Assembly (NCBI GenBank): GCA_016937995.1
Contig: JAFGVM010000022.1
Coordinates: forward strand, 1 to 37,870
Source of the DNA: Candidatus Delongbacteria bacterium
GTDB lineage: Bacteria > UBA4055
Length of the DNA stretch: 37,870 nucleotides
Reading direction: 5' to 3'
The notes beneath the pieces were generated by a model, which saw only the letters and a list, made by a program, of their open reading frames with translations, was not told where the DNA came from and did not search any database. This document shows, in pieces, positions 23,371 to 37,419 of this stretch. Positions within the stretch are counted from its first letter, which is position 1, and the number at the start of each line of letters is the position of its first letter. The translations under genes and the position numbers were made by a program.

Positions 23371-24273
23371 CTATATCATTATTTCCATGAAATCTTCAGC
23401 CAGATATATCTCTCCATCGAATTTTTCTGCCGCTTCTGTTCTGAACTTCTCTGAATAAGGATAAGCTGCACTGAAGTGGTACAGCATTATCTTCTTCACA
23501 TTTGCTCTATGAGCTACATTTCCTGCCATATACGATGTTAAATGAGTTCTGTCTTTTGCTCTTTCCTCATGCTCTTTCTGAAATGTCGATTCTATTATCA
23601 TAAAGTCAGCATTATCAGCGGTTTTATATATTCCTTTCGACAGATAAGTATCACCGATATAGGCGATCGTTTTACCTTTAACAGGTTCAGATGCTACGTC
23701 TTTCAAAGCTATTTTATCACCATTCTCCAGAGTAACCGCTTCACCTTTCCTCAATAGACCACATACCGGGCCTTCAGTCAGCCCGTAGCCCTCAAGTTTC
23801 TCTTTGATGATATTTCCAAGTTTGTCATTGAAAGTTATTCTGTAGCCAAAGCAATCCAGTCTGTGCTTAAGCAGATACGTATTTATCTTAAAATCTTCAA
23901 AGATATGTTCGTTTTCGTCATCTATTTCAATGATCTCAGTTTCAAATGAGAATTCTGTTCCTACAAATTTCAGGTTCATTTCGATAAATTCTTTAATACC
24001 AATTGGCCCCACAATAGTTACTTTTCCTTCTATTCCGAACATGCTTTTGGTTGAAAGCATCGGGATAAGCCCTGCAATATGGTCAAAGTGAAGGTGAGAA
24101 ATGAATATGTATCTTATCTTGCTTAATTTATATCCGGCTATCTGTAGCTGTCTTTGAGTATTTTCAGAGCAATCGAGCATAATACCGTAACTCTCCAGTT
24201 TTATTATGAAAGATGTGCAATTACGATTCTTTGTAGGTGCTCCACCGCTACTGCCTAATACCAATAATTTCAT
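23371..24273 (-). CDS. rnz: Ribonuclease Z-like metallo-beta-lactamase protein
   Basis: 300 aa, matching RNase Z length. It should process tRNA 3' ends. N-terminal LVLGSSGGAPTKNRNCTSF and LDCSENTQRQL correspond to the RNase Z G-x-G-x-P...R-N-x-S and D-C-G-E-G-T-Q blocks, with Ser-Glu-Asn replacing Gly-Glu-Gly. The zinc motif is FISHLHFDHIAGL (His60, His62, Asp64, His65). A later His (LKHRLDCFGYR), Asp (IAYIGDT) and the His of MLYHFSAAYP complete the site. The typical exosite/flexible arm is short. A non-tRNA MBL role cannot be excluded, but the overall pattern is RNase Z. Confidence 0.82.
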   Translation of the reverse strand: MKLLVLGSSGGAPTKNRNCTSFIIKLESYGIMLDCSENTQRQLQIAGYKLSKIRYIFISHLHFDHIAGLIPMLSTKSMFGIEGKVTIVGPIGIKEFIEMNLKFVGTEFSFETEIIEIDDENEHIFEDFKINTYLLKHRLDCFGYRITFNDKLGNIIKEKLEGYGLTEGPVCGLLRKGEAVTLENGDKIALKDVASEPVKGKTIAYIGDTYLSKGIYKTADNADFMIIESTFQKEHEERAKDRTHLTSYMAGNVAHRANVKKIMLYHFSAAYPYSEKFRTEAAEKFDGEIYLAEDFMEIMI

Positions 24274-24301: not shown

Positions 24302-24757
24302 TTAATTCTCAATTTGTTTTATCATATAATACTTGATGTTACCCGGTGATATGAACAAAGTACATTCTTCATTATCACATATTTCCTTCATCATTTCAAC
24401 TACTTCAGTTACCTCAAGATCTACTTCGAAGAGAATGTCGGACAGAAATACCTGCCCGTCGTCATCATTTTCAGCCAGCTGGAGTACGATCTCTTTTAAT
24501 TCGTCAACATCGATGATATCAACAGGTCTGTAACTTTCTGGAAATGAATGGAATACATAATTTGATCTACCAGCTTCAACCACGAAAATCGATATCGCAT
24601 TTTCTCTGTATAGTTCGTTTAATATGCTTTTTACAAGTTTTATATCTTTATATATCTTGCCAAATGCTTTACTTGATATAATCCCATCATTAAGAACTGC
24701 ATATTGCAATACTTTCTTATATATGTCGAATTCAGTCAGCTTCTTTTTAAAGAACAT
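24302..24757 (-). CDS. Small acidic protein with two winged-helix-like halves
   Basis: 151 aa, not recognised. Two halves have the same outline: helix, D-G-x-hydrophobic-S turn, helix, V-x-x-[IM][LM] helix, E-x-x-[IL] and a beta wing ending in an aromatic pair. The first runs from DIYKKVLQYAVLNDGIISSK to SNYVF; the second from LKEIVLQLAENDDDGQVFLS to IKYYMI. That resembles tandem winged helices, but the acidic charge argues against simple DNA binding. The ATG shares one base with the uvrD stop (TAATG), with GGAGAA as ribosome site inside the last uvrD codons, so it is translationally coupled and may be a helicase partner. Confidence 0.65.
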   Translation of the reverse strand: MFFKKKLTEFDIYKKVLQYAVLNDGIISSKAFGKIYKDIKLVKSILNELYRENAISIFVVEAGRSNYVFHSFPESYRPVDIIDVDELKEIVLQLAENDDDGQVFLSDILFEVDLEVTEVVEMMKEICDNEECTLFISPGNIKYYMIKQIEN

Positions 24758-26922
24758 TATTGATTCTCCATTAATTTTAATCCAGCGTATTTCGTCAGCA
24801 GCTTTTTTATCCCGTATTCATCGAAATCGACGGTCAATGTCTGCTTAGCTCCTTCTCCTTCGATCATCAATATAATACCTTCCCCGAACTGATTTGAGAC
24901 CACAAGATCTCTTTCATTGAATTGATCTATCTGAAGTGTTTTATATGTATTTTCGTACTTACTTTTTCTTTCATAGTCAAGATTTGACCTGTCAATATAG
25001 TTGTAATCTTTCATATCAACAGAATCTTCAGGCAGATTCTTCAAAAATCTTGAAGGTATATACCCGTTAAAATCCCCGTAGTATCTTTTCCTGAACTTAT
25101 ACGTAGAAAAATATAGCTTCTTCTTCGCTCTGGTAACAGCAACATAGAATAATCTTCTTTCTTCTTCGATCTTATCCGAAGTATCATCTCTGACAATAGG
25201 GAAGAGCCCGTCATTCATTCCTATAATGATCACATTCTCGAACTCCAGGCCCTTGGCTGAATGTACCGTCATCAGTGTTATATTGCTTTCACTGTCGTTA
25301 TATGAATCAATATCAGCCAGCAGTGATACCGATTCAAGGAAATCTCTGAGAGTATTGTTTTCTTCATTAGCCGTAAATTCAGAAATACTTGCTAAAAATT
25401 CATAAAGGTTGTCTATCTTTTTATCTGAATCGTTCTTCTCTGCTTCAAGATTATAATATGCTTTTAATCCCGATTCAATGAGTACGAATTCACACAGTTC
25501 TTCAGCATCCATCCTTGAAAGGTTTTCAATACCCTTATTATAAAGCTCTAAAAATCTGTTTATCTTATGTCTTGAATTTTCAGTGAGATCAGAAATGTTC
25601 TTATTATCCCTGAGTGCATCAAAGTAGGTCATTTCGTTGGTGAAAGCATGATGCCGAACCTTTTCCAGAGTCGTTTTTCCGATACCTCTCGGTGGGAAGT
25701 TGACGATACGTTCAAAAGCAACATTGTCTTTTGGATTTAAAAGCAGCTTAAGATATGCTGTAATGTCCTTGATCTCTTTTCTTTCATAGAACTTCACTCC
25801 ACCAACGATAACGTAGGGAAGACCCTTCTTACGCAGATTCTCCTCAGGTAATCTACTTTGCGAGTTAGTTCTGTAAAGGATACATATATCTTCAAGTTTG
25901 GAACCGTTGCCGATCAGTTCAGTGATAATATCAATGACCTTTGTACTTTCTTCTATATCCGAATCAGAAGATATCATTACTGCCTTATCACCTGTATCAG
26001 CATTGGTAAATAATTTTTTACCTAATCTCTGTGTGTTCTCTGATATGACAACATTCGCTATATTGAGAATATTTGTAGTACTGCGGTAATTTTCCTCAAG
26101 TTGTACGACCTTACACTTTTTAAATTTCTGCTTAAAGTTCAGGATATTAGTTATATCAGCACCTCTCCAGCTGTAGATAGATTGATCTTCATCTCCGACG
26201 ACACAGATATTTTCATAAATTCCACTGAGCATTTTTACCAGAAGGTCCTGAACAAAGTTCGTATCCTGATATTCATCAACACAGATATACTTTATCTTAT
26301 TTTGAAATTCGAACAAAAGGTCCTGATTTTCTCTGAACAATTTTATTGTCATACAGATCAGATCATCAAAGTCGAAAGCATTACACTTAGCCAGTTCATC
26401 CTGATATCCTTTGTAGATGTCTTTTATCTTTGAATGAAAATTTACATCAGAATCAGGGTTGTATTCTTCCGGATATATAAGTTTGTTCTTAAAATTAGAG
26501 ATCATATGAGCGATCTTTTTGTACGGGAATGCCGATGAGTCAATATTCTGCTGAGTAATGATATTCTTAACGACCTTATAAGAATCATCAGAATCGTAGA
26601 TCACAAAGTTTGAAGTATAACCAAGCCTTTCAGCATATTTTCTCAATATTCCCGCACAGATCGAATGAAAAGTACCTGCAATGGTCATTTTCCCAAAATC
26701 TCCAACCCTTTGAATTATCCTGGTCTTAAGTTCTTTTGCAGCCTTATTTGTAAAAGTAACAGCCACGATCTCTCCGGGATCTGCTTTTTTTGAAAGGATG
26801 ATATTTGCTATTCGTTCAACAAGAACTCTGGTCTTACCGCTTCCTGCACCTGCTATAATAAGCAAAGGTCCGTCTAAATGTTCGACAGCTTCCTGCTGTT
26901 TGGAATTTAAAGTTATTCTCAA
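24757..26922 (-). CDS. pcrA: UvrD/PcrA-type superfamily 1 DNA helicase
   Basis: 721 aa, standard PcrA/UvrD length. 3'-5' helicase for nucleotide-excision and mismatch repair and replication-fork clearance. Motifs: Q-motif LNSKQQEAVEHLDGPLLIIA, Walker A AGAGSGKTR (25-32), Ia AVTFTNKAAKELKTRI, II VDEYQDTN, III GDEDQSIYSWRGAD, IV ENYRST, V TLMTVHSAKGLEFENV and VI EERRLFYVAVTRAKKKL. A Tudor-like PcrA tail (VVSNQFGEGIILMIEGEG) is at the C-terminus. It starts with TTG at 26922, inside a heptamer tandem repeat; no nearby ATG keeps the Q-motif. Confidence 0.94.
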   Translation of the reverse strand: MRITLNSKQQEAVEHLDGPLLIIAGAGSGKTRVLVERIANIILSKKADPGEIVAVTFTNKAAKELKTRIIQRVGDFGKMTIAGTFHSICAGILRKYAERLGYTSNFVIYDSDDSYKVVKNIITQQNIDSSAFPYKKIAHMISNFKNKLIYPEEYNPDSDVNFHSKIKDIYKGYQDELAKCNAFDFDDLICMTIKLFRENQDLLFEFQNKIKYICVDEYQDTNFVQDLLVKMLSGIYENICVVGDEDQSIYSWRGADITNILNFKQKFKKCKVVQLEENYRSTTNILNIANVVISENTQRLGKKLFTNADTGDKAVMISSDSDIEESTKVIDIITELIGNGSKLEDICILYRTNSQSRLPEENLRKKGLPYVIVGGVKFYERKEIKDITAYLKLLLNPKDNVAFERIVNFPPRGIGKTTLEKVRHHAFTNEMTYFDALRDNKNISDLTENSRHKINRFLELYNKGIENLSRMDAEELCEFVLIESGLKAYYNLEAEKNDSDKKIDNLYEFLASISEFTANEENNTLRDFLESVSLLADIDSYNDSESNITLMTVHSAKGLEFENVIIIGMNDGLFPIVRDDTSDKIEEERRLFYVAVTRAKKKLYFSTYKFRKRYYGDFNGYIPSRFLKNLPEDSVDMKDYNYIDRSNLDYERKSKYENTYKTLQIDQFNERDLVVSNQFGEGIILMIEGEGAKQTLTVDFDEYGIKKLLTKYAGLKLMENQ

Positions 26923-26956: not shown

Positions 26957-27298
26957 CTATATGTTCGTCACTTCAGCTTCGATCTCTACATCCCACCACA
27001 TCTCATCGTTCTCGATCTTTTCTGAAGATGAACTAAGAACAGTATGTTTCAGGATCTTACCTGCAGGTATCAATTCAGGTTTCCCATCTTTCTCCACTAC
27101 TTTGAAACCGAATTGTCTTAAAGCATCATCTCTTGCATCCTGAAGTGCTTTTTCCTCAGTTTCACCCCAGCCTTGCGCTGTGATCTTGTGATTCTGAACG
27201 TCCACATTCTCAGTTGTTGAATTAGGTTTCTCATTTTTTGCACAAGAAACAAACAAAGCCAAAGCAATTACCAGTAATACACCTGTTAATTTTTTCAT
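26957..27298 (-). CDS. LPP20-like lipoprotein
   Basis: 113 aa. The lipoprotein signal peptide KKLTGVLLVIALALFVSC has lipobox LFVSC-A, so the mature protein starts at the Cys. The mature part shows the LPP20/DUF400-like pattern ITAQGWGETEEKALQDARDD followed by LRQFGFKV, known from small periplasmic lipoproteins of unknown function. The ATG overlaps the mltG stop (ATGA), so it is translationally coupled to mltG and likely shares an envelope role. Outer versus inner leaflet cannot be decided for this lineage. Confidence 0.78.
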   Translation of the reverse strand: MKKLTGVLLVIALALFVSCAKNEKPNSTTENVDVQNHKITAQGWGETEEKALQDARDDALRQFGFKVVEKDGKPELIPAGKILKHTVLSSSSEKIENDEMWWDVEIEAEVTNI

Positions 27299-28323
27299 CT
27301 GTTTTTCCTCCAGATTTCTCTTCTATATTTATCAAATTTTTTCTTGTCATTTATATGACCGTCCAGTGTCGAATTGAAATAATGTCCTCCGTCACCTCTG
27401 GCGACCATATATATATACGGTTTGTCGGAAGGACTCAGAGCTGCTTTAATACATGCGTAAGAGGGATTATTTATCGGTCCGGGGGGCAGACCTTTATACA
27501 TGTAAGTATTGTATGGATCGTCAATTTTGATATGTCTTTCTCTGAGTCTTGTGGGCTTATCCAGGATATACTGAACTGTGGGATCAGCCTGTAGCAGCAT
27601 ACCTTTTTTTAGCCTGTTGTTATACACAGCACTAATATCGTAGACTTCAGATGAGTCCATGACCTCACCCTGAATTATTGATGCAAGGGTTATTATTTCA
27701 TGCAGTGAAAATTTACTTTTTGAAATATCATCCATAATAGGATCAAGCTTACTGAATGTATTATCCACCATTCTTCTTATTATCTCTTCCGGACTGTCAT
27801 TTTCATTGAAATTATATGTCTCGGGGTAGAGGTAGCCTTCAAGATCTCTTGCTTTTATATTGTATTGTTCCAAGAGGTCTTTGTTCTTGGTCAGAGAAAC
27901 AAAAGTTGCAGAGTCAATATTCATCGTTTTTTTTAGTACTCCTGCTATCTCACTTATTCTATATCCTTCCGGGATAGTGACGTTCCTGGTCAAAATACCT
28001 CTCCTGGTAAGAAAGATTGCAAGCTGCTTCACTGTAAATTCAGTATTCTCGGGTATATAGAATCTTCCATATCTTAACTTACTGTCCAGACCGAACCATT
28101 TTGCAACGAACTTCAGATCAAAATCAGAAATATCTATATCGTTCTGCCTAAGGATACCGGCTATGTTGTTTATTGTGGAATTCTTTGGTATTTCGAACAT
28201 GAAAGAAGGTCTTTCGTCTATCACGACTTTGTTTATTACCATTAAATCCAGTAATATAAAGCCGAAAGTAACCATCATGAAGATCAGTGCTAATAGATTT
28301 AAGATAATTTTACTTCTTTTCAA
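27295..28323 (-). CDS. mltG: Endolytic murein transglycosylase MltG
   Basis: 342 aa. An N-terminal transmembrane helix (IILNLLALIFMMVTFGFIL) is followed by a LysM-like region and the YceG catalytic domain. Motifs: LEGYLYPETYNF, TLASIIQGEVMDSSE with catalytic Glu220 (E. coli MltG Glu218 in IEKE), VYNNRLKKGMLLQADPTVQY, and MYKGLPPGPINNPS near the end. It cleaves nascent glycan strands to set chain length at the inner membrane. It starts with TTG, two bases after the stop of the selenoprotein gene. Tight spacing on both sides puts it in one operon with the selenoprotein and the lipoprotein. Confidence 0.93.
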   Translation of the reverse strand: MKRSKIILNLLALIFMMVTFGFILLDLMVINKVVIDERPSFMFEIPKNSTINNIAGILRQNDIDISDFDLKFVAKWFGLDSKLRYGRFYIPENTEFTVKQLAIFLTRRGILTRNVTIPEGYRISEIAGVLKKTMNIDSATFVSLTKNKDLLEQYNIKARDLEGYLYPETYNFNENDSPEEIIRRMVDNTFSKLDPIMDDISKSKFSLHEIITLASIIQGEVMDSSEVYDISAVYNNRLKKGMLLQADPTVQYILDKPTRLRERHIKIDDPYNTYMYKGLPPGPINNPSYACIKAALSPSDKPYIYMVARGDGGHYFNSTLDGHINDKKKFDKYRREIWRKNR

Positions 28324-28325
28324 TT

Positions 28326-29207
28326 CTATTCCAGCTCCCTGATCAATTTTTCAATATTTTCTTCTCTGATATATTTTGCACCGAGAACTTTTATCAATTC
28401 ATATGAAACAAATTTCTTTTTTCCGGTCTTATCCACATCAAATACCACCTTGCCTACTTTTTCACCATCACTTCCGTTCTGAACGTAAACTTTTGTATCA
28501 ACAAGTCTCGGATAGTAGAATTCATAGTCATTATGACCACCGATCAACAGGTCATATCCTTCAACGTGATCCAATGTTTTTACAATTCCTTCCCTGTTCA
28601 GATGAGCTAGAATGACCACAATATCACTCTCTTTTCTCAATTTATCGAGAGTATTTCTTAATTTATCAAAAGCTTTATCGACGATTATATCTCCATCAGC
28701 GATAGTCTCTGTTTTAATTAAATATCTGAATCCGGTATTGAAATTTACTCCTGTAACACCTATTTTGATCCCGTTATCAAGTGTGATTATTTTATATTCA
28801 TCCATCTTAAGATCTTTATTCATGAAGCTCAGATTTGTAGAAACAAAAGGAAGTTTACTGCTAAGTTTATTTTTATAGAAATTCATTCCATTTATGAATT
28901 CCTGATCTCCGGGACAAATCGCATCATAGCCTAAGTTGGGATAAATTTCAGCCACAATATCATCGTCACTGTTCGAACCGAACTGATTAAGTATATCTCC
29001 TGTATCCACGAATATCATATTAGGCTGTTCAGTCTTCAGACTGTCAAATAAAGTTTTTCTCTCAGCAAGACCGCCGAGTCTTTCTATAGGTCAACCGCAA
29101 TCTCTATAATATCCGTTATTACTTCCACTGAACACAATCGTGGCCTGTTTTGCCATGATCATATTTATCGTCAGTACCAAAAAAAATATTGTCGTTCTTT
29201 TTATCAT
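28326..29207 (-). CDS. Predicted selenoprotein: secreted metallophosphoesterase-like protein (in-frame TGA at 29093-29091)
   Basis: 293 aa if TGA is read as Sec39. A plain ORF search stops at the TGA and gives only a 230-aa fragment from ATG 29018. Upstream the same frame continues 38 codons to ATG 29207: signal peptide (IKRTTIFFLVLTINMIMA), strand ATIVFSGSNNGYY, then Asp-Cys-Gly-[TGA]-Pro, and ERLGGLAERKTLFDSLK, FVDTGD, GYDAICPGDQEF, VILAHLNREG, LLIGGHNDYEF. This is the 5'-nucleotidase/metallophosphoesterase N-domain order of the Cys-Gly-Cys, GGLA-R subgroup, with TGA replacing the second Cys. Metal ligands are degenerate (no D-x-H; GDQ for GNH; GHND for GHxH), suggesting redox or metal binding rather than phosphatase action. 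A SECIS-like hairpin follows. Alternative: a nonsense-mutated gene. Confidence 0.75.
29061..29093 (-). promoter_or_regulatory. Predicted UGA-Sec codon and bacterial SECIS hairpin
   Basis: Counting the U of UGA (29093) as 1, bases 16-21 (CUCGGC) pair with 28-33 (GCUGAG): five Watson-Crick pairs and one G-U. The six-base apical loop is GGUCUU (22-27). The E. coli fdhF SECIS also has GGUCU at 22-26, with G23 and U24 needed for SelB. A shorter alternative stem (AAGAC/GUCUU) is possible. The GGU also encodes a conserved Gly, so part of the match may be constrained by the protein. Confidence 0.65.
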
Positions 29208-29390: not shown

Positions 29391-30338
29391 ATGGATGATA
29401 AATTAAAATACAGACTTTTCTGTGAAGAAGAGAAAGAGTTACCGATATTTTTCAGAGACTGGTGGCTGGATTCGGTTACTGATCCATCTGAATGGGATAT
29501 TATTTTGATAGAGAAAGACAATAATATCATAGCTGTATTTCCATTCTTTAAAGCAAAAATACATGGCTTTAATTTCATTGTTCAACCTAAACTTACACAG
29601 TTTTCAGGTCCGTGGATAAGATATCCTGAAAATATGAAGTACGCAGCTAAACTCAGCTATGAAAAGAAAATTTTCAATGAAATTATTGAAAAACTTCCTA
29701 GCTTTGACATGATGGATATTAATTTTCATTACTCCATCGATAATTGGCTGCCATTCTACTGGAAGGGTTACAAACAGACAACAAGATATACATACGTGAT
29801 AGAGAATATTAAAAACCTTGAAAATGTTTACGATAATTTTCAAAGCAATATCAGAACTGACATAAAGAAAGCTGAGAAGATAGTTACGATCACTCCAACA
29901 GATAACCTGCAGAAATTCTATGAACTTAACTCCAGTACGTTCAACCGGCAGGGAATAGATATGAGTTACTCTTATGAATACCTGAGAAGAATGGACAATA
30001 TTCATAAGGCAAATGATTCCAGAAGGATCACTTTTGCTGTTGATAATGAAGGAAATGTTCATTCAGCAATTTATGTTGTATGGGATAAGAACAGTGCCTA
30101 TTATCTTATGAGCGGAAGCGATCCTGAGTTCAGAAGCAGTGGTGCTACGAGTTTTTTATTATGGGAAGCTATCCAGTTTGCATCAACTGTTGTTGACAAG
30201 TTTGATTTTGAAGGAAGTATGATAGAACCAATCGAAAAATTCTTTAAAGGTTTCGGAGCCGTACAGAAACCATATTTCAATATTTCAAAATCCAATTCTA
30301 TTTTACTCAATATAGCACGTCTATTAAAGCTTTTATAG
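29391..30338 (+). CDS. FemAB/BioF2-like GNAT acyltransferase
   Basis: 315 aa. It resembles the GNAT_acetyltransf_6/BioF2-like (PF13480) group: an N-terminal degenerate GNAT half (FFRDWWLDSVTDPSEWDIILIE...FPFFKAKIHGF), a central NIRTDIKKAEK helix (the conserved R/K-x-x-x-[KR]-x-x-K element), and a C-terminal GNAT half with FAVDNEGNVHSAIYVVWDKN, AYYLMSGSDPEFRSSGATSFLLWEAI (acyl-CoA or aminoacyl-tRNA loop) and DFEGSMIEPIEKFFKGFGAV. Such proteins often modify cell-surface polymers or peptides. Substrate unknown. It has its own likely promoter and no obvious terminator hairpin. Confidence 0.78.
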   Translation: MDDKLKYRLFCEEEKELPIFFRDWWLDSVTDPSEWDIILIEKDNNIIAVFPFFKAKIHGFNFIVQPKLTQFSGPWIRYPENMKYAAKLSYEKKIFNEIIEKLPSFDMMDINFHYSIDNWLPFYWKGYKQTTRYTYVIENIKNLENVYDNFQSNIRTDIKKAEKIVTITPTDNLQKFYELNSSTFNRQGIDMSYSYEYLRRMDNIHKANDSRRITFAVDNEGNVHSAIYVVWDKNSAYYLMSGSDPEFRSSGATSFLLWEAIQFASTVVDKFDFEGSMIEPIEKFFKGFGAVQKPYFNISKSNSILLNIARLLKLL

Positions 30339-30619: not shown

Positions 30620-33349
30620 ATGGAATTTAGAAAACTGGCTGAAAAGATAAAGAACAAAGGAAAATTTACCATTAAGATACCTGTCCCTGCATTAGGTTGT
30701 GGTGTTCTTGGATTATCTTTTGCAAAATATGACGTAAATATGGGTAAATACGCTTCTCAATTATTGAAAAGCTTAGAGTACCGTGGATACGATTCGACAG
30801 GAGCTGCTATACAGGATGACAAAGGCAATATTACTCTCAAGAAAGATGTTGGTGCCCCGTCTGAACTGGTTAGAACACTCGGTATAACAGATATGGAGGG
30901 AAAAATTTTCTGCGGCCAGGTAAGATGGGCTACATTCGGAGCAGTAACGCAGGAGAATGCTCAACCACACATAGTAAAATGTAAAAAGCACATATACGGA
31001 GCTCATAACGGTAATATTACAAATACACATTTTTTAAAATCTTTCCTTTCAAAAGAAGGTCACCGGATCGTTAGTGATAATGATGGTGAAATGCTCGTCC
31101 ATACTGTGGAACATTATTTTGATATGCATCTTGAAAAATATCCTGACAGCAAACATAATGATCATGATATCAGAAGACAGGCCATGGTAAATGCAATTCT
31201 TGATGCAACTGAAAAGGCTGTAGGATCTTTTGCTGCAGTAATTGTTGATCCTGTGACTGAGAAATCTTATGCTATTAAAGCCGGAAGCAGTCTATATGCA
31301 GGAAAAGGTCAAATCGACGGTAACGATTTTATACTTCTTTCTTCAGATCTTACGGCTGTTTTAAAGTTCACGAAAGATCTAATCAATCTGAGAGAAGGTA
31401 ATTTTATAGAGTATGACAGTAGTGAATATCAGGTTTATTCATATAAGGATATGAAAATAAAGCAAAAAGACGGTTCGGTTATTGAAAGAAAGAAAGGCGA
31501 TAAAATTCAGATAGACATTACAAGAAGTAAATTGAGAGCTGAAGATACAGAATTACATCCTCAATTTCATTTCTTTATGCATCAGGAGATCTACAATCAG
31601 GTTGAAAGCTCAAAGAATTTGATTACTTTCTTTAATAAAGGAAGTAAAACGACGAACGATCTTGATGCTTTGCTGAGGAACAATAAGTTGAAATCAAATG
31701 TACTTGATATTTCAAAAGCGATCTACAGGACCGAGTCTTTGAAAGAACAGAGAGAAATATTTTCTAAATTCAAAGATAGTAAGGATTTCCAGAAAATAGC
31801 GGATGATATAGCCGAAACTTTACCTGAGTTGAATACAGCCGTGAAGAAGAAAGATTTTATCAAGTATGAATTCTATTCAAGATACTCAAATGTATTTCTG
31901 GATATCATTGAAGGTGTAGAATATAAGAAAGATAATATACTTGCGGCTAAAGTACTTGATATAGGTGCAGAGCTGAGGGAATTAAAGAAATTCCATGAAC
32001 ACGTTGATCTTTTCTCAAGCATTATATTTGATGCCTGGAAAAATCATTCTACGATATATACTATCTCATGCGGAACATCCTATAATGCAACAAAGACCGC
32101 AGCTTTATTCTTCAATGAAATAGCAGGAATTAAGATAGCACCTATTTTACCAGGTAACTTCAGAGGTCAGTATTCAAATTCTATCAGAGAAAATGATGTT
32201 CTTCTCGGTGTAAGTCAGAGTGGTGAGACAAAAGATCTTATAGATATTTTCAATGATATTGATGACAGTGGAATCAAAGTTAAGAAGATTACTATAATAA
32301 ACAATGAGAATTCTACTTTGGCTCAGGAGAAGTGTGATTTCTATCTTCCTATCAAGTGTGGTCCTGAAATAGCTGTTCCGGCTACAAAAAGTTATATGAA
32401 TCAGGTATTATTATTCTATTACCTGGCTATAAAAGTGGGTGAGAAGCGCCTTGACGAGATCGAGGATAAAAAGCTGAACAGATCAATGAAGGAAAAGCTT
32501 GACAGAATGAAAGAAAACCTTCAATATATTCCTGATCTGATCGATGAGACCATAAGAACCACAGAATCCCAGGTTGATAAGATGGCAGATTCATTATATA
32601 TGGAACCAAGTATCCATATCCTTGCTACCAAGGTCAGTTCTGTTGCCGAAGAAGGTTCGTTAAAGATCAGAGAAACTGTTCTAAACCATACTCAGGGTAT
32701 TGAAGGATCTGAATTTAAGCATGGTCCAAATACTATTTTAGGCTTCAATACTATCTTTGGAACAAGAGATATTGAGAAATTCGTTAAATACAATAAAACA
32801 ATGAATAAATATGCTCTTAAAAAGGCTCAGGAAGCTAAATTGAATGAGAAAGATACTGCAAACCTTTTAGCAGATATCAGCAGCTATATGATCGAACCGG
32901 TTAAACCATTTAACATTTCTCCGAAAGCAAATCAGATATTCAATGAAGTCACTGAAAAATTCAAACTTGTTGACTCTTTTGATACAAACTATCCTTTGAT
33001 ATTCTTAACAGGACCTGATACAAGGGATGTTAATCTGACCATCTCTCAGATAAATACTCATAAGATCAGAGGTGCAAATACATACCTGATCGCTGAAGAT
33101 AATGATGATCTTATTAACAATGCAAGGTCAATTCCATCAGGTGATAAGCATTATGAGTTCATTTATGTAAAGTTACCTAAGACCGATGATACTTTGCTTT
33201 CAACATTCTCCAGTATGGTCGTTTTACAGCTTCTGGCTTTTAAAATGAGTGTTAAAAAGATGAAATATCTTAATAAACTTCATGTACCGTTACATGGCGT
33301 TCACCCGGATGTTCCTAAGAATGTATCTAAAAGTATTACAGTAGATTAA
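30620..33349 (+). CDS. glmS: Glucosamine-fructose-6-phosphate aminotransferase, large form with propeptide
   Basis: 909 aa against about 610 for usual GlmS. It makes GlcN-6-P from Fru-6-P and Gln, feeding peptidoglycan and LPS synthesis (MurA is in the same window). The glutaminase domain has the nucleophile at Cys27 (GCGVLG), then EYRGYDSTG, VRWATFG and AHNGNITN. MHQEIYNQ marks the inter-domain linker. Two SIS domains follow: ISCGTSYNATKT, VSQSGETKDL, PATKSYMNQ, FKHGPNTIL, ending PDVPKNVSKSITVD. About 110 extra residues lie between MHQEIYNQ and the first SIS domain; more lie in the C-terminal half. AAGGGGAG precedes ATG 30620. The 26 residues before Cys27 must be removed for it to act as N-terminal nucleophile. 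Confidence 0.88.
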   Translation: MEFRKLAEKIKNKGKFTIKIPVPALGCGVLGLSFAKYDVNMGKYASQLLKSLEYRGYDSTGAAIQDDKGNITLKKDVGAPSELVRTLGITDMEGKIFCGQVRWATFGAVTQENAQPHIVKCKKHIYGAHNGNITNTHFLKSFLSKEGHRIVSDNDGEMLVHTVEHYFDMHLEKYPDSKHNDHDIRRQAMVNAILDATEKAVGSFAAVIVDPVTEKSYAIKAGSSLYAGKGQIDGNDFILLSSDLTAVLKFTKDLINLREGNFIEYDSSEYQVYSYKDMKIKQKDGSVIERKKGDKIQIDITRSKLRAEDTELHPQFHFFMHQEIYNQVESSKNLITFFNKGSKTTNDLDALLRNNKLKSNVLDISKAIYRTESLKEQREIFSKFKDSKDFQKIADDIAETLPELNTAVKKKDFIKYEFYSRYSNVFLDIIEGVEYKKDNILAAKVLDIGAELRELKKFHEHVDLFSSIIFDAWKNHSTIYTISCGTSYNATKTAALFFNEIAGIKIAPILPGNFRGQYSNSIRENDVLLGVSQSGETKDLIDIFNDIDDSGIKVKKITIINNENSTLAQEKCDFYLPIKCGPEIAVPATKSYMNQVLLFYYLAIKVGEKRLDEIEDKKLNRSMKEKLDRMKENLQYIPDLIDETIRTTESQVDKMADSLYMEPSIHILATKVSSVAEEGSLKIRETVLNHTQGIEGSEFKHGPNTILGFNTIFGTRDIEKFVKYNKTMNKYALKKAQEAKLNEKDTANLLADISSYMIEPVKPFNISPKANQIFNEVTEKFKLVDSFDTNYPLIFLTGPDTRDVNLTISQINTHKIRGANTYLIAEDNDDLINNARSIPSGDKHYEFIYVKLPKTDDTLLSTFSSMVVLQLLAFKMSVKKMKYLNKLHVPLHGVHPDVPKNVSKSITVD

Positions 33350-34545: not shown

Positions 34546-37419
34546 CTACGCAACCATTCCCTGAACGAATGTTTCTATAAACTCCTTCATTCTTTCAATG
34601 ATCCTGTCCCCTATTTCTCTGGCTTGCAGGACACTTGGTCGTTGGTCCAGGCATTTGAAGACATCATCTCTTAGCGGTTCCTGAGAATTGAATATATATG
34701 CATCTATAAGTGCTGCGAACTGCTTTTGATCCAGGTTTTCTTCTTCGCATATATCTTTCAGTGCCAGTCTTTTTTCTTCACTCCAGAATTTTTCGAATTC
34801 ATCTTCTATGGAATCTATATCATCAATTAGCGGTAGATTTTCTTCTATAAACTTTTCTATCAGTTCTCTTTTGCTTCTTAGTTCAACTTCACCTGCAAGT
34901 TTGTCGTATATGAATTTCTTTAGTGCATCAGGGTCAGTTTTCTTATCCTGCTTCATCTTTCCGATAAGCTTTATAATGTATGCTACATTGACAACATCTC
35001 TGTGAAGTAGTTCGACTTCAAAATCTATATCATTTAGTATTGACGACTTATCTTTTGTTTTGTCATTTTTTACTTTGTCATACAGGTCAAGGTATTTGCT
35101 TCTGTAGTCTGCAAAACTCTGCTCGGACATTGGTAGATCTTTCCAGCTGAAATCTACATAGGACTTTAATACATTGATCAGTCTTATCAGTTCACGGAAT
35201 ATTTTGATGAATTTCATTTCATCTTCTTCGGTAATCAGATCGTTCACACTGTCAACTGTAGGTGCAACGGTTAGAAGCTCTGAGAAAGCCTGACTGAATT
35301 TTCTTAATATAGCTTCGTAAGGCGGTATTATTATATCTTCAATAGCTTCTTTGTTTGAGAATAGCGTTATAGCATCATCTACTACATGTTTCAAGTTCCT
35401 GAAACAGAGGATATTTCCCTGAGATTTTTTCTTGTTATATATTCTGTTCGTCCTTGAAAATGCCTGAATTATACCGTGATATCTTAAATTCTTATCAACA
35501 TAGAGTGTATTGACCTTCTTTGCATCAAATCCAGTTAGGAACATATTTACTACAAGCAGGATATCCAGCCTGTCTTTAGCATCATTGAATGTTGGTTTTT
35601 CTCTCTCCTTCAGCCTTTTACTTATATCTTTGAAATAGTTTTCATACAGTTTGCCATCTTGTGTAGAATAATTTGTACCGTACATTTCGTTATAATCTGA
35701 AATTATATCATCAAGCTTTTCTCTATTGTGCTTCTCGTTATACATTGGTTTCGTTTCAGCTGCCAGAAGATAGTCTTCCTCCTCCGGAAGTAAATCTGCT
35801 ACTCCTTGTATCTCATCATTCGCACCGTAGGTAAATATCGCACCAATCCTCAGATCATGCTCACCTGCATCCTTTTTGGCTTTGAATATCTCATAATATT
35901 TTATCAAATTATCTATTCCACTGATTGCGAAAATGGATGAAAATTCCCGTCTGTGAGTTTTTTCATCATGATACTTTATGATATGGTCAGCTATCTTTTC
36001 AAGTCTTTCAGATGAATCTAAAATTTCTCTGGTATCTATATCTTCAACTTCTATATCAATGAAAGTATTTCCTTTCTGCCTGTATCTGCCTATGTATTCG
36101 ATGTTGAATTTGAGTACATTCTGATCACGGATCGCATCGGTTATTACATATTTGTGAAGACATTCCCCGAATAAATCCTTTGTGGTTCTTTTACCAAGAT
36201 CGGTCTTGAATGAATTTTCTGCAAAGATAGGAGTTCCTGTGAATCCGAATAGCTGTGCCGCATTGAAAAATTTCGTTATCCGCTTATGTGTCTCTCCGAA
36301 CTGGCTTCTGTGACATTCATCAAAGATAAACACCACCCGTTCGTCTCTAAGATGCCATATCTGCCTACTGTAAACATCTTTTATAGCATTGTTGAGTTTC
36401 TGAATGGTAGTAACAATGAGCTTTGTATCATCCTTTAATTGATCAAGGAGACCTTTGGTATTTTCTGTAGTATCTACACTGTCTTTCTTAAAATTATTGA
36501 ACTCGTTCATTGTCTGATAATCAAGATCCTTCCTGTCAACTACAAATACCACCTTCTTTACGGTTGGGAAATTCATTATGATCTGACTTGCCTTGAATGA
36601 TGTAAGTGTCTTACCTGAACCTGTTGTATGCCATATGTATCCGTTATCCTTATTTTCCTGCACCTGCTCAATTATTGATTCCACTGCATAATACTGATAC
36701 GGTCTGAGGATCATCAGCTTACCGAATGTTTCGTTGTGTACTATGTAGTGGGATATCATCTTTCCGAGATGGTTGGTATTTAGGAATGCATCGGTGAATT
36801 TTGTTAGGTCGGTTATATTTCTGTTGTCTTTATCTGCCCAGAAGAAAGTCTGCATGAAGTCCAACTGTCTGTTGTTGGCATAATATTTTGTATCTACTTC
36901 GTTGGATATTACGAACATTTGTACGAAGTTGAAGAGTCCTCTGTTTGTCCAGAATGAATGTAATTGATAGCGGTTGATCTGATTGAAAGCTTCTTTTAGC
37001 TCCAGTCCACGTCTTTTTAGTTCGATCTGAACCAGTGGAAGACCGTTTATGAGAATTGTAACATCGTATCTGTTCTTGTAAGTTCCTACCTGAGTTACCT
37101 GATTTGTTACCTGGAATATGTTTTCATTCCATTCGTCATTGTTAAAGAACCGGACATAGAAGCTGTCACCATCATCTCTTGTGAGATAAAACCTGTCACG
37201 TAAAGTCTTTGATTTCTGGAATATATTACCTTTTTCGAGGTGGTTCAGGATAGCATTGAATTCTCTGTCTGAGAAAACAGTATTGTTGAAAGCACCAAGC
37301 TGGACTTTCAGGTTTGAAAGAAGAGAATCCTCGTCATGGATCAAAACTCGCTCGTAATTTAAACCAACAAGTTGATCTATAAGGTTGTTTTCAAGTATGG
37401 CTTCTGGTTGTGTTGTCAT
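34546..37419 (-). CDS. hsdR: Type I restriction enzyme, restriction (motor) subunit
   Basis: 957 aa, slightly short for HsdR (about 1000-1040). The N-terminal nuclease domain has the PD-(D/E)xK residues Asp119 (RYDVTI) and Glu133-x-Lys135 (IELK), then QINRYQ (the Q-x-x-x-Y motif). The SF2 motor shows Walker A HTTGSGKTLTS (264-274), DECHRSQFG (DEAD box, from 367), GFTGTPI and QAFSRTNRIYN (motif VI). A helical C-terminal domain follows, which docks on the methylase. It cleaves DNA after translocation when complexed with HsdM and HsdS. Neither is in the window; they may lie beyond 37870. AAAAGAG precedes ATG 37419. Confidence 0.92.
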   Translation of the reverse strand: MTTQPEAILENNLIDQLVGLNYERVLIHDEDSLLSNLKVQLGAFNNTVFSDREFNAILNHLEKGNIFQKSKTLRDRFYLTRDDGDSFYVRFFNNDEWNENIFQVTNQVTQVGTYKNRYDVTILINGLPLVQIELKRRGLELKEAFNQINRYQLHSFWTNRGLFNFVQMFVISNEVDTKYYANNRQLDFMQTFFWADKDNRNITDLTKFTDAFLNTNHLGKMISHYIVHNETFGKLMILRPYQYYAVESIIEQVQENKDNGYIWHTTGSGKTLTSFKASQIIMNFPTVKKVVFVVDRKDLDYQTMNEFNNFKKDSVDTTENTKGLLDQLKDDTKLIVTTIQKLNNAIKDVYSRQIWHLRDERVVFIFDECHRSQFGETHKRITKFFNAAQLFGFTGTPIFAENSFKTDLGKRTTKDLFGECLHKYVITDAIRDQNVLKFNIEYIGRYRQKGNTFIDIEVEDIDTREILDSSERLEKIADHIIKYHDEKTHRREFSSIFAISGIDNLIKYYEIFKAKKDAGEHDLRIGAIFTYGANDEIQGVADLLPEEEDYLLAAETKPMYNEKHNREKLDDIISDYNEMYGTNYSTQDGKLYENYFKDISKRLKEREKPTFNDAKDRLDILLVVNMFLTGFDAKKVNTLYVDKNLRYHGIIQAFSRTNRIYNKKKSQGNILCFRNLKHVVDDAITLFSNKEAIEDIIIPPYEAILRKFSQAFSELLTVAPTVDSVNDLITEEDEMKFIKIFRELIRLINVLKSYVDFSWKDLPMSEQSFADYRSKYLDLYDKVKNDKTKDKSSILNDIDFEVELLHRDVVNVAYIIKLIGKMKQDKKTDPDALKKFIYDKLAGEVELRSKRELIEKFIEENLPLIDDIDSIEDEFEKFWSEEKRLALKDICEEENLDQKQFAALIDAYIFNSQEPLRDDVFKCLDQRPSVLQAREIGDRIIERMKEFIETFVQGMVA

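Follow-up and report, generated by a model that had tools for sequence, protein, structure and literature searches.

The window, i.e. the whole 37,870-nucleotide stretch of Candidatus Delongbacteria DNA that was analysed, encodes on its minus strand an UshA-like protein in which an in-frame UGA at codon 39 is almost certainly read as selenocysteine, as judged from sequence comparison. In the fuller reading, which we regard as highly probable, the product would be an exported UshA-like selenoprotein with SelB- and SECIS-dependent insertion of Sec39 on a decayed phosphoesterase scaffold and with a periplasmic redox or soft-metal role. The minus-strand frame from 29207 to 28326 is interrupted over its 293 codons solely by the TGA at 29093-29091, agreeing with an earlier note on this DNA that a single TGA joins a signal peptide to the domain in one frame, and the joined translation around it reads ...SGSNNGYYRDCGUPIERLGGLAERK.... 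Standard ORF calling yields just a 230-aa piece with an internal ATG start (28326-29018), and annotation can easily mistake the gene for one of a 230-aa protein lacking both the signal peptide and the CxU site. Its features are as follows.

28326..29207, minus strand: predicted UshA-like selenoprotein gene, 293 codons with one UGA read through (frame reading, profile match and orthologues)
29148..29207, minus strand: hydrophobic, signal-peptide-like N-terminus, residues 1-20, without a lipobox Cys (inferred from sequence)
29091..29099, minus strand: Cys37-Gly38-Sec39 (CxU) motif, invariant in the ten orthologues
29091..29093, minus strand: in-frame UGA, codon 39, predicted Sec (TGA in 10/10 orthologues; other relatives have Cys or TGA)

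The N-terminal segment of the ten orthologues varies in sequence while its hydrophobicity is kept, and this hydrophobic N-terminus suggests that the selenoprotein is exported. Of the window's stop-to-stop frames with 150 codons or more, 28 in all, 15 end in TAA, 9 in TAG and 4 in TGA; TGA thus terminates other frames and the genetic code is not changed, as had been claimed before. Elsewhere in the window, three more candidates for read-through (8119, 33881 and 30065) gave translations without anything resembling a conserved Cys/Sec site, and an Rfam search of the whole window returned no match. A promoter had also been claimed for the gene, and this was not borne out, as just a 10-of-12 consensus match was found at 29280-29252 and such matches were no commoner in the region than in shuffles (7 versus 5.3, sd 2.8).

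The source genome (G000), a draft of 2.75 Mb in 99 contigs and 97% complete, was searched for the selenocysteine machinery, with which the earlier note had let its claim stand or fall. All of selA, selB, selC and selD were found, each above its curated cut-off: SelA at 549 bits (cut-off 268), SelB at 334 bits (242), SelD at 354 bits (125) and tRNA-Sec (selC) at 58.4 bits (47). The SelD of this genome (L014, G000:C37:2048-2968) is itself a predicted selenoprotein, with an in-frame TGA in the context ...FVKAAGUAGKV.... SelB or an over-threshold tRNA-Sec was present in nine of the ten genomes carrying an orthologue of the UshA-like gene, and neither was found in the tenth (G009), an 86% complete draft.

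Syntenic orthologues were identified in 10 of the 13 Candidatus Delongbacteria genomes examined (L015 and G002:C61 appear to be one contig and were counted once), and the window protein shares 51-79% identity with the other nine. Each of the ten contains exactly one stop within the match, which is TGA at the same codon. Their locus was compared through the following downstream genes.

27295..28323, minus strand: mltG, endolytic transglycosylase, starting 2 nt past the selenoprotein stop (TIGR00247, 212.6 bits versus a cut-off of 103.4)
26957..27298, minus strand: small conserved ORF, 113 aa, of no family (ORF, profile search and synteny)
24757..26922, minus strand: PcrA/UvrD-type helicase (profile search and synteny)
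23371..24273, minus strand: Ribonuclease Z (profile search and synteny)

The mltG gene adjoins the selenoprotein gene in 10/10 carrier genomes, rnz is there too where contigs reach, and the contigs, as far as they extend, preserve the order selenoprotein - mltG - (small ORF) - pcrA - rnz and, on the opposite flank, a glmS-like gene in divergent orientation; the operon claimed previously is supported by this conserved synteny. Two of the other genomes, G004 and G007, have mltG with different neighbours and no such selenoprotein gene adjoining it, while in G001 no mltG was found either, and the lack of both there suggests an assembly gap. Within the orthologues, the mean pN/pS was 0.112/0.83 for residues 22-38, before the UGA, and 0.243/0.815 for residues 53-293, indicating that purifying selection acts on both sides of the UGA. 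Conservation along the protein peaks at residues 26-57, and the invariant core is SxNGYxRDCGUPxxRLGGLAERKT.

Just 3′ of the UGA, the RNA runs in the order CCUAUAGAAAGA-CUCGGC-GGUCUU-GCUGAG, and a hairpin was predicted in it.

29061..29078, minus strand: candidate bacterial SECIS hairpin, stem CUCGGC/GCUGAG, loop GGUCUU at 29072-29067 (folding and synonymous-divergence minimum)

The hairpin comprises a stem of 6 bp, shortened to 5 bp in four orthologues, and a 6-nt loop starting with GG, with 18 nt between the UGA and the loop. Across the ten orthologues, local fold energies lie between -8.3 and -13.2 kcal/mol. In the window it lies inside every constraint quoted for bacterial SECIS elements in PMC13188914, i.e. 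a loop of 3-9 nt, a G in the first two loop positions, a stem of 4-16 bp, a distance of 16-37 nt from the UGA and an MFE <= -7.5 kcal/mol; by a stricter stem-only energy, four orthologues narrowly miss (-7.3 versus -7.5 kcal/mol). Under a similar filter (stem energy <= -7.5 kcal/mol), such a hairpin accompanies 1.25% of the 1,921 TGAs in the window. In E. coli fdhF (MG1655 record), GGUCU begins at the same 19th base after the UGA. The clearest sign of the element came from synonymous divergence, which was lowest, among 272 stretches of 12 codons, in the one directly 3′ of the UGA (0.22; median 0.53), and pS for codons 40-52 was 0.35 versus 0.82-0.83 on both flanks. Invariant-residue columns gave the same picture, with a divergence of 0.26 within 14 codons of the UGA on its 3′ side versus 0.56 elsewhere (permutation p = 0.0001), so the RNA there is selected beyond the protein. 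One outer stem pair fails in 4/10 orthologues, the 50-nt minimum-energy fold differs from the hairpin in several of them, and no compensatory double changes were found in their stems because the hairpin sits within an invariant protein segment. SelB carrying Sec-tRNA-Sec would bind this hairpin, and selenocysteine would be inserted at codon 39, yielding Cys37-Gly-Sec39.

Residue 39 was further compared among 33 aligned CxC/CxU family members, i.e. the ten orthologues and 23 others, which were picked for having the motif and are not an unbiased census; position 37 is Cys in all of them and position 39 is Cys or TGA in all, and the alignment thereby shows a predicted Cys/Sec exchange at position 39. 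Two paralogues in the same genome carry Cys in the Sec39 column (NCNCP and GCRCP), and outside relatives have CGC, CDC, CSC or CGU at the motif. A tree of 34 sequences placed the ten orthologues in a single clade (support 100/99); the four Sec proteins from other phyla lay elsewhere, separated from it by Cys proteins, and the root and deep forks of this tree were weak. The earlier claim that the UGA stands for Sec at a Cys position is thus strongly supported by the machinery, the ten-genome TGA and the Cys/TGA column together.

Two readings without selenocysteine were weighed against these data. The assembly is a draft, and a lone TGA is the expected outcome of a nonsense mutation or sequencing error that turned a Cys-containing gene into a pseudogene; yet the TGA recurs in ten genomes that were assembled separately, the sequence to either side of it is under purifying selection and the synteny is conserved, by which this explanation is already refuted and retains a negligible probability. 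With ten genomes sharing the TGA, a base-calling error is very unlikely, and the earlier argument against a chance nonsense mutation gains from the same orthologues and the both-sided selection. The UGA might alternatively be a true stop, the product being the 230-aa C-terminal piece from the internal ATG (29018) behind a short upstream leader, which is indeed what a standard ORF caller returns. Against this, the most conserved residues, 26-57, fall nearly all outside the 230-aa ORF, the codons before the UGA change synonymously (pS 0.83 versus pN 0.11), stop-free relatives run through the site with Cys and the full Sec machinery is present, so a true stop is held to be extremely improbable and decoding as selenocysteine is preferred.

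Profile searches placed the protein in the phosphoesterase fold family. NCBIfam matches were to NF041198 'UshA-like (seleno)protein', with 112 bits versus a cut-off of 275 over profile positions 16-275 of the 519-position model, to NF049981 (UshA-like family 2), with 37 bits versus a cut-off of 140 over residues 23-104, and also to SoxB and nucleotidases. Searched against the PDB, a profile of the ten orthologues matched nucleotidase 3ivd (1.3e-16) and UshA (about 2e-7), and Pfam PF00149 scored 20.0 bits, below its 21.5 cut-off; an AlphaFold model from two sequences had a pLDDT of 32 and was not used for fold search. The fold family is hence that of 5′-nucleotidase, UshA and SoxB (PDB 3ivd, 1ush; TIGR04486), whereas in the window group DxH, the NH dyad and the two metal His are not conserved and the C-terminal 5′-nucleotidase domain is absent. 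The set of conserved metallophosphoesterase ligands (DxH, GD, GNH[ED], H and GHxH) was not found complete, with SNN replacing DxH and DQE replacing NHE. A metallophosphoesterase-like protein, as described in the earlier note, therefore holds for sequence and fold family and not for the metal ligands. With these ligands eroded and Cys37-Gly-Sec39 invariant together with the residues around it, the protein is probably not a hydrolase, and we are fairly confident that its domain does not function as a phosphatase. We think that it is a decayed phosphoesterase serving as a scaffold for the Cys-x-Sec site, i.e. one phosphoesterase-type domain whose two-metal hydrolytic site has decayed and whose conserved core is Cys-x-Sec plus GGLAERK. 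From this conservation, a periplasmic thiol/selenol redox protein or a soft-metal ligand, rather than a nucleotidase, appears most likely.

Activity as a metallophosphoesterase (nucleotidase), with Sec as an additional metal ligand or as a substitute for one, would account for the profile matches to nucleotidases and UshA, and for Asp71 and Asp101 (Asn in nucleotidases), each kept in 9/10 orthologues; Cys37/Sec39 also lies about 6-10 residues past the lost DxH, so could be near the metal site. It is unlikely nonetheless, as position 202 is H, N, S or Q with His replaced in 5/10 orthologues, position 225 is N in 8/10 and H in just 2/10, and L052 has neither Asp71 nor Asp101. A different extension keeps the Sec-fixed subfamily on a decayed scaffold and adds that read-through tunes the mltG-pcrA-rnz operon: at low selenium, ribosomes would stop at codon 39 and mltG translation would drop, which, if true, would couple cell-wall synthesis to selenium status. 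Of this proposal, the Sec-fixed subfamily is well supported; as a whole it is a long shot. For the preferred reading, a decayed scaffold with a redox or soft-metal role, the conservation contrast offers a testable clue to family function, namely that selection keeps the Cys-x-Sec pair and not the phosphatase site.

The literature has recorded UshA-like (COG0737) CxU selenoproteins since 2008, when 76 sequences were listed from marine samples (PMC2398784), and tables in PMC9312934 and PMC13188914 also include them; PMC2398784 sets this family apart from selenoproteins with conserved Cys-based redox motifs. The earlier suggestion of an undescribed selenoprotein consequently does not extend to the UshA-like CxU kind, and survives in that the ten proteins have their own clade and the window protein scores below the NF041198 and NF049981 cut-offs. 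With NF041198 (UshA_like_PCGU), the window protein shares the phosphoesterase-type domain, a GGLA[RE]R block after Cys-Gly-Sec and the exchange of Sec and Cys across the family, and the C-[GX]-[CU] that NF041198 places before GGLARR is present, with GGLAER in the window protein. It differs in its length of 293 aa, in D-CG-U where NF041198 has P-CG-U, in its separate clade, and in the absence of the NF041198 C-terminal part (396-518), where the G007 member has multihaem cytochrome c motifs. NF049981 is a weak match only, with the spacing CxxU (PMC13188914) versus CxU in the window protein. The nearest paralogues, also from this phylum, are CxC lipoproteins linked to a pilus secretin (L055, L056, L058-L063 and L065), which share Cys37-x-Cys39 in the same column; they have Cys instead of Sec and a lipoprotein-type signal, and in the loci read they follow the secretin gene instead of adjoining mltG. 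On these comparisons, the ten Delongbacteria proteins are a distinct new subgroup of predicted UshA-like selenoproteins, adding a subgroup missed by curated NCBIfam cut-offs. No earlier selenoprotein report for Candidatus Delongbacteria was found in the literature searched; a mention in Haft and Tolstoy 2025 is possible.

The second UshA-like lineage follows a pilus-type secretin gene (L055:2166-3077, L056:92-1006 and L057:2280-3527), and in L055 and L057 a glycine dehydrogenase-like gene comes next. The product of this secretin-linked locus is CxC in most genomes and CGU (TGA) in G007, where it carries multihaem cytochrome motifs as a fusion; this is a Cys/Sec exchange at one syntenic locus.

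In several genomes the mltG-pcrA-rnz cluster also contains two conserved small ORFs (26957-27298 and 24302-24757 in the window), for which Pfam and NCBIfam gave no match. Transcribed divergently from the selenoprotein gene, 30620-33349 of the window encodes a 909-aa GlmS-like protein with glutamine amidotransferase and SIS domains, which exceeds the 607-position length of the GlmS model and is 71-74% identical across the phylum. A FemAB/GNAT-type gene (29391-30338) lies between the two in the window, and they adjoin directly in most other genomes where both are visible. Further along, 34546-37419 encodes the Type I restriction enzyme subunit HsdR.
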